51,781 bases of DNA, taken from contig JAFXQO010000079.1 in the NCBI GenBank assembly GCA_017527065.1, forward strand, positions 1 through 51,781. The letters are read 5' to 3'. The stretch's first letter is position 1. Each line of letters opens with the position of its first letter. A program made the position numbers and the translations under genes. Source of the stretch: Clostridia bacterium. GTDB lineage: Bacteria; Bacillota; Clostridia; Christensenellales; Aristaeellaceae. Below are positions 36,102 to 47,761 of the stretch, piece by piece. The notes under the pieces are model-generated. The model searched no databases and had not been told where the DNA came from. It worked only from the letters and a program-made list of their open reading frames with translations.

Positions 36102-36119
36102 CGAACAAATGTTCTTTTT
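36102..36119 (+). promoter_or_regulatory. LexA-like box / weak terminator
   Basis: CGAACAAATGTTCT matches 13 of 14 positions of the Bacillus-type SOS box CGAACRNRYGTTYC. It is followed by a T-run, so GAAC-AAAT-GTTC-TTTTT could instead be a weak terminator of the sigma operon. It lies 200 bases before the phage genes. Confidence 0.4.
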
Positions 36120-36164
36120 AAAATCTGGAAGATTTCACAGAACGCTATGTGTCTGTTGACTGTG

Positions 36165-36194
36165 TTGACGAATAAGGACCTCATGGCGTAAACT
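36165..36194 (+). promoter_or_regulatory. Candidate promoter for the phage module
   Basis: TTGACG (36165-36170), 18-base spacer, TAAACT (36189-36194). A second TTGAC lies at 36156. Only a moderate match at -10. Confidence 0.45.
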
Positions 36195-36250
36195 GACTAT
36201 GCTGAGCGCGGAAGGCAAGGGCCTCCACGCTCGGTTCATATCATCGCGGA

Positions 36251-36283
36251 GGGGAATCGCGCGTTTCGCGCGGTTCCCCTTTT
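36251..36283 (+). terminator. Terminator in the phage-module leader
   Basis: GGGGAAtCGCGCG-ttt-CGCGCGgTTCCCC followed by TTTT, ending 7 bases before the TerL ribosome site. Transcription from upstream must pass it, which suggests antitermination or attenuation of the packaging genes. Confidence 0.75.
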
Positions 36284-44312: not shown

Positions 44313-46405
44313 ACGCGCAGACCACGCGCCAGCGGATGACGCTGAGCGATTTGAGGGAGCCGCAGCAGCTGCGGGAGCTCAACCGGCAGCTGGAATGGGT
44401 CTGGACCCAGCTGATGGGCGGCCTGACGCAAAAATCCCTTTCCAGCGGGCTGAACAGCGTGATCGAGAGCAAGGCGTCGGGCGAAGCGGTGGACGAACTG
44501 ACCCAGGCTGTGGAGGAGCAGGGCACGCTGATCGAGCAGAACGCCGCCTCCATCGCGCTGAAGGCCGACCGCACCGTGACCGACGCCCTGGGCCAGCGGA
44601 TGAGCACCGCGGAGGCCAGCATCGCGCTGGTGCCGGATTCGATCCGCCTGGCCGTGAGCGGCATTGAGGTGGGCGGCTCGAATCTGGTGAGCGAATCGGC
44701 CACGTTCAAGGACGCCGCCATCGCCTTCGAGAACGCGGCCGGCGCGGCGCAGGTTTCGCCCAGCGCCTCCGCGGCCTCCGGGCGCATGCTGTCGCTGGCG
44801 TTTTCCAGCGTACTTAATCCCTGCGCCGTGCGCTGGAATCCCTTTACGGGCGAGAACGGGCAGACCTATACCTGGAGCTTTTCCGCGCGCTACACGGGCG
44901 GCGCGCTGGAGGTGGCCGCCGGCCACGCCTGCGGCGGCGAGACGGCCGTCAGCCTGACTTCGAGCTGGCAGAAATTCACGCACACCTGGACCTACGACGC
45001 CCAGGCCGGCGTCCCGTCTTTCAGCTGGCGGGGCGCTTTCGCCGCCAACGAGACGCTCTATCTGGCCGATTTCAAGATCGAGTCGGGCGGCGTGGCGACA
45101 GACTGGGAGAGCGCGCCGGGCGAGCTGTTCGCCGGCACGAGCGTCGCCATCACAAAGGATCACTTCCACGTGGAGACCAACGAATTTGAGATCGACGCGC
45201 CCGGCGGCGAGACCTTCCACCTGGACGCCGAGGGCGGCAGCATGGACAACCTGACCGTAAACCGCCGGCTCATCGCGCCGAACATGGCCGAGAAATACGC
45301 CGGCGCGGCGCTGATAACGGTGGGCGCGGCGGGCGACTACACCAGCCTGCAGGCCGCCTGCGACGCGCTGAACGGCCGCGTCCTCACAGGCGGCGTGACC
45401 CTGACTCTCCTGCAGGACGCCTTTGAAAACGTGTCCCTCGGCGGGGTGAACGGTCAGGGCCGGCTGACCGTCCTGGGCGGCGGCCATACGCTGACGGGGA
45501 GCCTGCGCGTCGAGGCCTGCGGCTGCGGCGTGTCGGTGGAAAACCTGACCGTCGTGGCCGGCGACGAATGTCCCGTGACCCTCTCCGCCGACCGTCACGT
45601 GCGGCTGTATAACGTCACCGTGGACGGCGGCGGGGCCTACGAGGCCGTGAGCGTCACTGAGGGGACCAGCGCGGAGCTGGAGGACTGCGAGATCCTCAAC
45701 GCCGTGAGCCTCATCTACGCCGGGCCGAACGCGCGGCTTTGCTGCCTCTCCCTGAGCGGCGGCGACGGCGCGTGGGCGCTGACGGCCAGCGGCGCGCAAT
45801 GGCTCTGGAGCGGCACCCGGCCGGACGGCGACTACCAGGAAATCGTCGCCTGCCTGCACAGCCCGGCCAACTTCATGGCGCTGCCCGTGGCCCTGGGCTC
45901 GGCTTCGCCCTCCCAGAGCGCCGCGCTGCAGACGGCGCAGTTTTCCGCCGCGCTGTCCGGCTCCTGCATGAACGGATCGGGCTGGATGAACGAGACCGCC
46001 CTGCGCCAGGGCCGCTACGACGACACGCAGTACGCCGGGTGCCTGTGGTTCAGTCTGGGCGCGCTCAGCGGAAAGACGGTGCGCAGCGCCTCGCTGACGC
46101 TCACGCGCGTTTCCGGCGCGGGCGGCTCCTCCCCCGTGGAGGTCACGCTGTACACCATCACCCTGGCCGGAAAGAGCGGCAATCCGCTCGCCGGCGCGGT
46201 GAACCGCGGCGCGCTGGGCTCCATCGGCAACGGCGAGACGAAGGCTTTCGCCGTGCCCGCCGCGGCGATCCAGGCCCTCGCCGACGGCGCGGCCGCCGGC
46301 CTCATGCTCTACGCCGGCGACATGTCGCTGCGCAGCGGCCGCCACTACAGCGCCAACTACGCCAAATTCGACGGCGGCGCCGCGCTCACCGTAACCTATC
46401 AGTGA
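44309..46405 (+). CDS. Tail spike/fibre with carbohydrate-binding and beta-helix domains
   Basis: 698 residues, starting in the ATGA overlap after GAGGAG. N-terminal helical anchor (1-95, trimeric coiled coil), a CBM4/9-like sandwich (about 115-265; GGSNLV, YTWSFSARYTGG), a linker, a beta-helix domain (about 335-480; DYTSLQAACDALNG then repeated short strands, as in pectate-lyase-like spikes) and a C-terminal sandwich (about 530-698). This is the layout of a receptor-binding spike. No catalytic residues identified. Ala/Gly-rich but with no stop or frameshift, so it has been maintained. Confidence 0.75.
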   Translation: MNAQTTRQRMTLSDLREPQQLRELNRQLEWVWTQLMGGLTQKSLSSGLNSVIESKASGEAVDELTQAVEEQGTLIEQNAASIALKADRTVTDALGQRMSTAEASIALVPDSIRLAVSGIEVGGSNLVSESATFKDAAIAFENAAGAAQVSPSASAASGRMLSLAFSSVLNPCAVRWNPFTGENGQTYTWSFSARYTGGALEVAAGHACGGETAVSLTSSWQKFTHTWTYDAQAGVPSFSWRGAFAANETLYLADFKIESGGVATDWESAPGELFAGTSVAITKDHFHVETNEFEIDAPGGETFHLDAEGGSMDNLTVNRRLIAPNMAEKYAGAALITVGAAGDYTSLQAACDALNGRVLTGGVTLTLLQDAFENVSLGGVNGQGRLTVLGGGHTLTGSLRVEACGCGVSVENLTVVAGDECPVTLSADRHVRLYNVTVDGGGAYEAVSVTEGTSAELEDCEILNAVSLIYAGPNARLCCLSLSGGDGAWALTASGAQWLWSGTRPDGDYQEIVACLHSPANFMALPVALGSASPSQSAALQTAQFSAALSGSCMNGSGWMNETALRQGRYDDTQYAGCLWFSLGALSGKTVRSASLTLTRVSGAGGSSPVEVTLYTITLAGKSGNPLAGAVNRGALGSIGNGETKAFAVPAAAIQALADGAAAGLMLYAGDMSLRSGRHYSANYAKFDGGAALTVTYQ

Positions 46406-46424
46406 CGAATAGGAGGGAATACAT

Positions 46425-47366
46425 ATGGAAATCAATCACAGCGGCTATCGCGCCTCGGATTTTTACAACGCCGAGGTCATGGACGCGCTGAACAAGCGGC
46501 TCGAGGGCTACTCGACCGACTACGCCACGCTGCGCAGGCAGGCGGAGGCGGAATACTCGCCCACCTACCAGGCCGAGGTGGACGCGCTGAACGAACGGCT
46601 GAAGGGCCAGACGCTCTCCGCGCAGAATGAGCGGCAGGCGCTGGACCGGGCCTATGAGCGCCAGCGCCGCCAGGCCAACGAGACCTACGACCGCGGCGCG
46701 GCCTCACTGAACAACGCGCTGACGGCGCGGGGCCTGGGCCGGAGCTCCCTCGTCGCCACGCAGGGCGCGTATCTGGAAGGGCAGCGGGGCCAGGCGCTGG
46801 CCGACATCAGCCGCGCCGAGGCGGACGACATCGCCGCCATCAACAGCCGCATCGCCCAGCTGACCGAGGAGACGGCCCGCAGCCGCCAGAGCCTCGCCGC
46901 CAATTACGCCCAGCAGCTGGACAACCGCATCAACCAGCTGCGCAGCAGCAACCAGAGCGCCGCCGTGAGCCTGCAGCTTCAAATCGCCGCGCTGCAGCAG
47001 CAGGGCTACCAGGCTTATCAGGACTGGCTCCTGAAGGAGCGGGCGCAGGCCCTCAGCGAGGCGGCGTTCCGCGAGCAGTACGGCCTCAACGAGGACGGCT
47101 CGCGCCGCGCCTCGTCTTCCTCCGGCGCGTCCGGCAAGGCCAAATCGACCCCGACCGCCGCCGCCAAGAAGACGGGCAGCGCGACGACGCTCTCCGGCCT
47201 CATCAAGAGCGCCGTGAGCGGCATCCAGTCGGCGCTGTCCAAGGCGGCTGGCGCTGCGAAAAGCGCCAGGAGCCAGACATCCGGCTCGAAAACATCCGGC
47301 TCTTCCGGCGCGTCCACGCCTCTCAGCGGCACGGTCACGAAGAGCATAAAGTCGAAGGCGTTATGA
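46425..47366 (+). CDS. Coiled-coil phage protein, possibly ejected
   Basis: 313 residues. Residues 1-215 are nearly all helix and Gln/Arg/Ala-rich with heptad pattern (MDALNKRLEGY, EVDALNERLKGQ, QLDNRINQLRSS); residues 225-313 are Ser/Thr/Lys/Gly-rich and disordered, with SSSSGASGKAKS and a repeated KTSGSSG-type unit, pI very high. No signal or membrane segment. Its place after the spike fits an internal virion (ejection) or needle protein of a podovirus. Overlaps TerS by four bases. Family unknown. Confidence 0.55.
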   Translation: MEINHSGYRASDFYNAEVMDALNKRLEGYSTDYATLRRQAEAEYSPTYQAEVDALNERLKGQTLSAQNERQALDRAYERQRRQANETYDRGAASLNNALTARGLGRSSLVATQGAYLEGQRGQALADISRAEADDIAAINSRIAQLTEETARSRQSLAANYAQQLDNRINQLRSSNQSAAVSLQLQIAALQQQGYQAYQDWLLKERAQALSEAAFREQYGLNEDGSRRASSSSGASGKAKSTPTAAAKKTGSATTLSGLIKSAVSGIQSALSKAAGAAKSARSQTSGSKTSGSSGASTPLSGTVTKSIKSKAL

Positions 47367-47761
47367 GCGCAGGGCGCAACAAGGCTCTCCCGGAAGCCGG
47401 GGCTGCGGCGGTCAAGAGCCGCATCACCCGCTATTTCAACGAATGCCAGCGCCAGGACATTCCCGCCACCCCGGCGGGCCTGGCGCTGGCGCTGGACATG
47501 AGCGTGGCCGAGCTGACCGGCTCGCGCCTGCCCGATCCGGTGAAAAAACCGGTCGAGCGGGCGCTTCTGCGCATCGAGCGGGAGACACTCGAGCGCGCGC
47601 TGAGCGGCAAGGGCGGCGCGAAGGGGGTGGAATTCGTGCTGGGGCAGACCGCGCAGGCCGCCCCGGGCGACGCGCTGCAGTCGCTGACGGACGAGGAGCT
47701 CTCCTCGCGGCTGGCGGCGGTGGCGGAGGAAATCAAAAAGGCGCTTGAGGAAAAAACATGA
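47363..47761 (+). CDS. Terminase small subunit-like protein
   Basis: 132 residues. N-terminal helix-turn-helix (SRITRYFNECQRQDIPATPAGLALALDMS, key part TPAGLALALDMSVAEL), a middle helix (PVERALLRIERETLERAL), then KGGAKGVEFVLGQT as in TerS proteins whose C-terminus binds TerL. It would select packaging DNA. TerS normally opens the packaging operon; here it closes it, 9.5 kb after TerL. Start overlaps the previous stop; terminator at 47762. Confidence 0.7.
   Translation: MSAGRNKALPEAGAAAVKSRITRYFNECQRQDIPATPAGLALALDMSVAELTGSRLPDPVKKPVERALLRIERETLERALSGKGGAKGVEFVLGQTAQAAPGDALQSLTDEELSSRLAAVAEEIKKALEEKT

Follow-up and report, generated by a model that had tools for sequence, protein, structure and literature searches.

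The window analysed here is the entire contig JAFXQO010000079.1 (51,781 bases, 65% GC) from an Aristaeellaceae genome of the order Christensenellales (3.07 Mb in 85 contigs). Set among host genes, ten open reading frames (ORFs), all on the + strand, occupy positions 36305-47761 and form a podovirus-type cluster of packaging, head, and spike genes, which we consider a candidate gene transfer agent (GTA). A first-pass annotation had described ten such genes on one strand in a region starting at 36102, one base before the LexA-type box in Table 1, and this description agrees with the present result: all ten ORFs are present, seven of them with library matches. These seven are TerL (phrog_2, 1.8e-39; Pfam Terminase_6N, 5.4e-12), the portal protein (Pfam P22_portal, 5.1e-16), the major head protein (phrog_14242, 6.3e-38), the propeller-like virion protein (phrog_3287, 1.7e-10), the tail/spike protein (phrog_1330, 1.3e-14), the coiled-coil protein (DUF7934, 1.1e-12), and TerS (Pfam GP3_package, 7.5e-9). 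Three proteins, the scaffold and two small connector-like ones, gave no confident library match and are assigned putatively from their positions and their conservation in relatives. The connector, propeller, and beta-helix/spike folds are putative assignments as well. The capsid has one match in this genome.

The genes are tightly spaced for the most part, as had been claimed, with the exception of a 197-base gap between the scaffold and capsid genes. This gap holds a dispersed palindromic repeat of host type, and such a repeat inside the cluster suggests long residence of the cluster in the genome. A repetitive extragenic palindromic (REP)-like repeat is also found at 3882-3917 and 51100-51136. 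The Rfam search of 36000-48000 gave no match, and the window contains no tRNA.

Table 1. Positions of the cluster genes and of the associated sites in the window
Feature	Position	Strand	Basis
LexA/DinR-type box, GAAC-N4-GTTC	36103..36114	+	sole exact match in the window; box also 5' of TerL in relatives
Sigma-70-type promoter-like site, TTGACG-18-TAAACT	36165..36194	+	1 found, shuffles mean 0.0; kept in the sister genome G004
Leader hairpin with short T run, terminator/attenuator-like, directly 5' of the TerL Shine-Dalgarno site	36242..36288	+	fold energy
TerL Shine-Dalgarno site, AAAGGAGG	36290..36297	+	sequence
TerL (terminase large subunit); no ATG/GTG/TTG at the expected start, GNRTGKT motif present	36305..37813	+	library matches
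P22/SU10-type portal protein	37817..39715	+	library matches
Scaffold-like protein (putative)	39741..40460	+	position and profile matches in 72/73 loci
Host-type dispersed palindromic repeat, between scaffold and capsid genes	40446..40580	.	46/48 other own-genome matches of the cluster fall here
Major capsid protein	40658..41860	+	library match and order-wide capsid profile
Small head/connector protein gp5 (putative), GTG start	41866..42276	+	profile matches in 67/73 loci
Connector-like protein gp6 (putative)	42273..42875	+	profile matches in 72/73 loci
Propeller-like virion/tail protein (putative fold), TTG start	42891..44312	+	library match; profile matches in 72/73 loci
Tail spike/receptor-binding-type protein (putative fold)	44309..46405	+	phrog_1330, phrog_21973; lineage-specific, 6/73 loci
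Coiled-coil protein with DUF7934	46425..47366	+	Pfam; profile matches in 67/73 loci
TerS (terminase small subunit), Pfam GP3_package type, distal end of cluster	47363..47761	+	Pfam
Terminator-like hairpin between the convergent TerS and oxidoreductase genes	47764..47796	+	fold z -6.1

Ten flank proteins were scanned, and every one with a match is of host type, which bears out the earlier view that the flanks are ordinary host genes. ThiF, MFS, GDPD, AlkZ-related, zinc-ribbon/transglutaminase, and sigma-70 proteins are encoded upstream, and a GFO/IDH/MocA oxidoreductase and YitT downstream. The 391-residue protein directly upstream of the cluster has no library match. No integrase, repressor, replication, or lysis gene was found beside the cluster or just outside it among these proteins (replication was judged from the flank annotation), again as first described. 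The contig has no tyrosine integrase, the four tyrosine-integrase matches of the genome all being on other contigs, and no tail tube or sheath gene was recognised in the cluster. Capsid-forming phage-inducible satellites carry an integrase and their own replication genes, and a temperate prophage has an integrase and lysogeny or replication genes together with its structural genes; neither combination was found here.

The start of TerL needs separate description. ACG codons stand at 36305 and 36308, and no ATG, GTG, or TTG follows the Shine-Dalgarno site, consistent with the unusual start noticed at first. The same is found in G004, a sister species of the same genus, and at locus L024, and the ACG codon is conserved in both. 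The stretch at L024 starts 21 bases 5' of this ACG, and its first three bases are an in-frame ATG ahead of a Shine-Dalgarno-like run. An ATG follows the Shine-Dalgarno site at L023, L025, L027, and L029. The ratio of nonsynonymous to synonymous change (dN/dS) of TerL is 0.16-0.18. Of 63 TerL ORFs, 62 contain the GN[RK]xGK[TS] motif, as does the window's frame if read from stop to stop; the acidic residues of what we take to be the motor and nuclease motifs are invariant in 51 of 51. This constraint and the kept residues indicate that TerL is very likely translated, and we infer that it may be initiated at ACG in the window's clade. Such a non-canonical start could hold packaging low. With the GP3_package-type TerS of this clade, sequence-specific packaging is possible.

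Relatives and inheritance of the cluster

The comparison of host loci suggested in the first-pass annotation showed that G004 has the complete cluster, with the window's flank genes on either side of it. Between the window and G004, the module genes have dS values of 0.28-0.69 and dN/dS values of 0.13-0.34, and the flank genes 0.20-0.94 and 0.13-0.35, respectively (pairwise Nei-Gojobori-type counts by a custom script, without a significance test). The similar dS values suggest that the cluster has aged as its surroundings did, and the dN/dS values suggest purifying selection on it. Against the IMG/VR copy L098, dN/dS is 0.16-0.28 for seven genes. These values bear on the possibility that the cluster is a defective or trimmed prophage being lost. 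TerL lacks a usual start codon, and the propeller frame of G004 is broken (L030 7364-8658), split by a frame change with about 40 codons lost, both of which would fit decay. However, the other frames of G004 remain open, the ORFs of the window are intact, dN/dS is low, and one collinear core gene set that is monophyletic with its hosts extends over an order, as described below. Loss is thus a very improbable explanation, in line with the first-pass argument against simple decay, for which the dN/dS check has now been run, and the remnant is rejected.

Among the other genomes of the genus, G002 has part of the cluster, on a contig of 5.6 kb, and no capsid match was obtained for G001 or G003. 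Both G002 and G003 contain the downstream flank gene, there not adjoined by the cluster. Since its neighbours there are unlike the window's upstream flank, a clean empty site is not shown in either genome. In G001 the contig stops 65 bases past this gene. A full prophage, another occupant considered at first, was found in none of the genus members with a readable locus (G002, G003, and G004).

TerL matching at 67-86% is encoded by six IMG/VR records and one goat-colon metagenome-assembled genome (MAG). Four of the six records and the MAG reach the cluster end, with TerS last; the other two are cut earlier. L026, L027, and L028 have identical identities to the window and were treated as near copies. 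Host genes adjoin the cluster in the contigs read: an SBP family 5 gene at L098 and an HD protein gene at L023, while L099 has genes for an HD protein and a GH127 arabinofuranosidase, and L101 and L102 for GH127 and an ABC transporter. No integrase match was found in the six records, which are possibly fragments. Judging from the host neighbours and the missing integrase, these "viral" contigs look like chromosome pieces carrying the cluster.

Within the host's order, a capsid profile built from 13 sequences matches 237 of 396 genomes (about 60%; 201 of 329 of good quality), representing 73 of 143 genera and 19 families (counted from the match table) and including genomes of 0.8-1.2 Mb. Exactly one capsid match is found in 229 of the 237. 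In a class-wide sample, the capsid occurs in 26 of 391 genomes. For gene order, 60 genome loci were chosen from the matches listed (part of the 237), preferring long contigs and many genera, and were joined with 13 earlier loci to give 73; family f24 has no locus among them, there being no f24 place among the matches listed. Profiles of the portal and capsid match all 73 loci, those of scaffold, gp6, and propeller 72, gp5 and coil 67, and TerL 63. The scaffold, gp6, and coil profiles grew by iteration from 6-12 loci to 67-72, and drift is possible. The common order is TerL-portal-scaffold-capsid-gp5-gp6-propeller-coil, and the lone exception, an apparent swap of gp5 and gp6 in L182, comes from overlong ORF calls.

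The remaining genes vary. In other families a TerS-like gene, c0 (weak phrog_309 match), is found in 66 of 73 loci and a small zinc-type gene in 52, both mostly between TerL and the portal; in L206 (f12) c0 stands before TerL. One or both of two holin-type genes end part of the clusters (BhlA 29/73, Phage_holin_1 30/73 loci). The profiles of the spike and of the end-placed TerS match the window's lineage only (6/73 loci), the spike region being the variable part of the cluster. TerL is missing from the stretch read in ten loci, four of which are cut by contig ends and six of which, all of f28, are not. Four of these f28 loci have, by eye, an ABC-transporter ATPase upstream, and TerL may be encoded elsewhere. 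In the f28 genus g135, a 2.3 kb extra ORF, c43, lies between TerL and the portal (L160 2795-5071 oriented; L161). Broken frames, which the first reading had left open as a sign of decay in relatives, are few: besides the G004 propeller, one stop lies within the capsid of G326 and of G179, and the portal is split in L284.

A tree of TerL, portal, and capsid from 58 genomes was compared with rpoB (58 of 62 handles; G103 has no rpoB match, G219 has an rpoB fragment only, and G245 and G297 were dropped as incomplete before the count; TerL is included for 51 of the 58, and the trees are by FastTree without support values). All host families (8/8) and genera (13/13) with at least two members are monophyletic in the module tree, compared with 6/8 families and 12/13 genera for rpoB. 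Module and rpoB distances correlate (Mantel r 0.453, with 0 of 2000 permutations as high; 0.084 within families alone). Within families, quartets agree with rpoB in 3000/3000 cases for f14 and for f28 and in 2848/3000 for f19; 15106 of all 20000 sampled quartets agree.

The surroundings of the cluster are partly shared between families. The f19 loci and three f28 loci have the same downstream host genes (c6, RNase J, O-methyltransferase, and c13) in the same order and at similar distances. Four f5 loci, one f3 locus, and one f16 locus share MurG-like and, by eye, lipase-like downstream genes, with a GyrB/ParE-like gene in f5 and f3. That different families have one chromosomal locus is best accounted for by common descent, the ancestor having had the cluster already.

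Regulatory sites upstream of the cluster

The LexA-type box lies 50 bases 5' of the promoter-like site and about 190 bases 5' of TerL. Boxes of this type also precede TerL in G004, L023, L025 (as a pair), L027/L028, and L029. A count over the 450 bases upstream of called TerL starts gave five boxes in 26,550 bp, against 32 in 1,069,125 bp elsewhere; the window's own box fell just outside this test because its called ORF starts late. In part of the other families the box precedes c2, a sigma-like gene with similarity to transcription regulators of phages and to sigma factors (phrog_36, 1.6e-13). A box lies within 250 bp upstream of c2 in 16 of 40 loci (f19 10/13, f5 3/6, f14 2/5, f16 1/3), against 13 elsewhere in 750,644 bp, and none was found in the 13 loci of f1, f3, f7, f9, f28, f32, and f33. 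BLAST clusters place c2 upstream of TerL in 31 loci of nine families and c1 in 34 loci of eight. Profiles count 43 loci for c2 and 53 for c1, the positions of the extra ones not being checked. The c1 gene (e.g. L161 430-1284) is divergent to TerL in 34 loci; its product appears by eye to be exported with a C-terminal membrane segment and has no confident family. The ECF sigma gene upstream of the cluster in the window was tried as a c2 equivalent and set aside, since its match to the c2 profile (E 1.4e-28) appeared only once the profile had absorbed it; it is provisionally treated as an ordinary host sigma factor.

In the window's genome (G000), two boxes stand 5' of an impB/mucB-family polymerase, and in both G000 and G004 a box stands 5' of a radical-SAM/HHH protein. 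The stretch read upstream of the G000 lexA gene contains no exact box. Because an upstream start was used in calling the polymerase ORF of L111, its boxes lie inside the called ORF yet before the domain. Two further boxed genes (L108 and L117) were read as FtsK by eye, and Pfam gave no match for them. As genome-wide enrichment of the box is weak, LexA is argued from conservation and from the genes that follow some of the boxes, and LexA control of the cluster is supported by this comparison of predicted sites.

The leader hairpin between the promoter and TerL is predicted to be stable (51-base fold -34 kcal/mol, z -5.9), its T run being below the 5-T rule used for terminator calls, and G004 has a similar hairpin (101-base fold z -4.2). 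This arrangement of hairpin and T run in the two genomes recalls the terminator/antitermination step described for CcGTA in the source drawn on here (PMC11150451).

Comparison with known systems and interpretation

Statements on published systems refer to the parts of the cited articles used here. A GTA is defined by six features: particle proteins derived from Caudoviricetes, full endogenisation, mostly vertical inheritance, packaging of mostly random host DNA, a head too small for its own genome, and delivery of DNA to other cells (PMC9662315). The first three were found for the cluster. Its particle proteins appear to be Caudoviricete-derived, judging from homology; host genes adjoin it in the window, in G004, in the IMG/VR contigs read, and in other families; and inheritance is mostly vertical at the order level, deep branching agreeing modestly.

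The closest published kind is FpGTA of Faecalibacterium prausnitzii (Borodovich et al. 2026), to which the cluster is likened by description, not by sequence (PMC12946183). FpGTA is a chromosomal operon of 10.5 kb whose ten genes include those for TerS, TerL, portal, scaffold, and capsid; it has no replication genes, and its lysis genes are in a second operon (PMC12946183). It is likely podovirus-like, is present in all twelve Faecalibacterium genomes examined, and gives particles with about 9 kb of DNA (PMC12946183). LexA is absent from the main text of that article (PMC12946183), whereas a LexA-type box is found here and, in other families, the sigma-like gene. Few GTAs are known outside Alphaproteobacteria, this podovirus-type one being described for one genus (PMC12946183), and no other GTA report for Clostridia, Firmicutes, rumen, Christensenellales, or LexA control was found in the open-access literature, among the matches listed. 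In FpGTA, TerS precedes TerL, as c0 does in L206, whereas the window's cluster has TerS last and its own spike.

The tail of RcGTA and CcGTA has a tube. These agents resemble the cluster as endogenised, mostly vertically inherited head-tail clusters with dedicated activators, CcGTA having a terminator/antitermination step (PMC9662315, PMC10883770, PMC11150451). They differ in their regulators, and homology to the window's cluster was compared only through family searches. PBSX of Bacillus subtilis is linked to DNA damage and is a tailocin-like killer with a long tail and its own lysis genes, unlike the podovirus-type cluster described here. The likeness lies in a chromosomal, non-propagating particle of a Gram-positive host (PMC12946183). 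The portal and TerS belong to the families of P22-type podoviruses (P22_portal and GP3_package), but the integrase, repressor, replication, and lysis genes of such phages were not found, and matching phage capsids and portals are at about 23-26%. In the phage collection, 3 of 50,697 records match the capsid, at about 25%, and 13 the portal; the plasmid collection gave no match.

Taken from its genes, the cluster is probably a host-kept, vertically inherited, SOS-linked GTA-like element of the podovirus type that would package and deliver host DNA. This favours the host-kept particle over the satellite and the trimmed remnant, the three options of the first-pass annotation. DNA damage would relieve LexA repression, the operon would make procapsids, and TerS and TerL would fill the heads with host DNA. 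Some cells would then release particles, whose spike would attach and bring the DNA to kin. Lysis in the window's genus would have to come from elsewhere; the cluster ends with one or two holin genes in a portion of the other families.

An SOS-induced killing particle of the PBSX kind, which would kill related cells when it binds them and contain either host DNA or no DNA, would also account for the LexA-type box, the spike gene, and the lack of any replication gene found, and a variable spike region is expected of target specificity. The FpGTA authors leave a killing role open for their particle (PMC12946183). On the other hand, the packaging machinery is kept, as judged from the TerL motif and the invariant acidic residues, no tail tube or sheath gene was recognised, and no immunity gene was recognised, though no search was aimed at one. 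We regard such a killer as unlikely.

Several observations, in addition to the broken propeller frame of G004, weigh against the GTA-like element. It is known here from its genes alone, from which particles, packaging of host DNA, and transfer are predicted. Constraint relative to L098 is weaker on TerS (dN/dS 0.56) and coil (0.48). The six uncut f28 loci (L162, L164, L165, L166, L167, and L169) have no TerL beside the cluster, and the BhlA holin has no match in 5/5 genomes of the window's genus. The window's box alone is not above chance (shuffle mean 0.74; 49 of 100 shuffles have one), the box precedes c2 in 4 of the 11 other families that have c2, and genome-wide enrichment of GAACRNRYGTTC is slight (8+4 strand matches against 4+3 for the reversed pattern in G000, 6+4 against 1+3 in G004). 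Agreement with rpoB is modest within f5 (1977/3000), f32 (1953/3000), and f3 (1691/3000), i.e. 56-66%, and between families (27717 of 53333 four-family quartets, chance being one third). Twelve sampled genomes outside the order carry the capsid, and mobile relatives may thus exist. In the search for tyrosine integrases (62 genomes, positions being those of the best matches listed), one genome, G179, has an integrase less than 20 kb from the capsid, at about 4 kb (locus L203, G179:C4:15500-34500), the sole such case among the matches listed. The element is also rare in the window's family, the capsid being found in 3/5 genomes of the genus and 0/31 other family genomes (G005-G035), and its locus varies among near relatives (one place in the window and G004, a GH127 side in L099 and L101, the SBP gene at L098), which hints that the cluster moved, or that chromosomes were rearranged, in this lineage.

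The last two points would be expected of a small podovirus that still infects, or of a capsid-forming satellite, with horizontal spread within the window's genus, as would the window's TerS type, unlike that of other families. A capsid relative is, moreover, encoded at 52 IMG/VR loci, at least two of which (L327 and L328) have other neighbours. Such spread is nevertheless improbable in our estimation: no integrase was found in the six nearest IMG/VR records, all possibly fragments, with host genes beside the cluster in those read, dS at the locus shared with G004 is like that of the flanks, and the phage and plasmid collections hold no close relatives. The satellite is disfavoured by vertical inheritance and because these records and, among the matches listed, all but one of the 62 genomes have no integrase close to the cluster; both it and a mobile phage are less likely than the GTA-like element. 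Two genomes, the window's and G004, share the locus in this genus, so that vertical inheritance within the genus is tentative.

The two exceptional IMG/VR contigs differ in content. L328 (30 kb) has an N-acetylmuramoyl-L-alanine amidase gene and other same-strand genes shortly 5' of TerL (3178-6174), and is perhaps a phage or a GTA with its own lysis gene. In L327 (67.7 kb), a WYL regulator, a cytosine methylase, and restriction/helicase genes take the place of the post-capsid genes (5986-12188).

The window's copy appears to be an outlying, patchier member of an order-wide lineage, being rare in its family and at varying loci, with TerS at the end and no usual TerL start. A broader proposition, which we regard as evenly balanced, is that this lineage is an ancient podovirus-type GTA typical of an entire order of gut Clostridia. 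It would be present mostly as one copy, at loci that families share in part, and a LexA box together with a sigma-like activator would connect it to SOS. In the window's genus this wiring would have changed, with the LexA box at the operon, the leader hairpin, the end-placed TerS, and an ACG-started TerL. Christensenellaceae account for 3 of 25 GTA-like packaging events in the FpGTA study, whose sections used here name no operon for them (PMC12946183). The same lineage could be the missing genetic basis of that packaging.

The packaging cluster described here is mostly single-copy and vertically kept, and it occurs in many families, part of which have SOS boxes beside it. The operon, its promoter, and a regulator gene are now named for work in a cultured relative. 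If the reading as a GTA-like element is true, DNA damage may routinely drive gene exchange in gut Clostridia.

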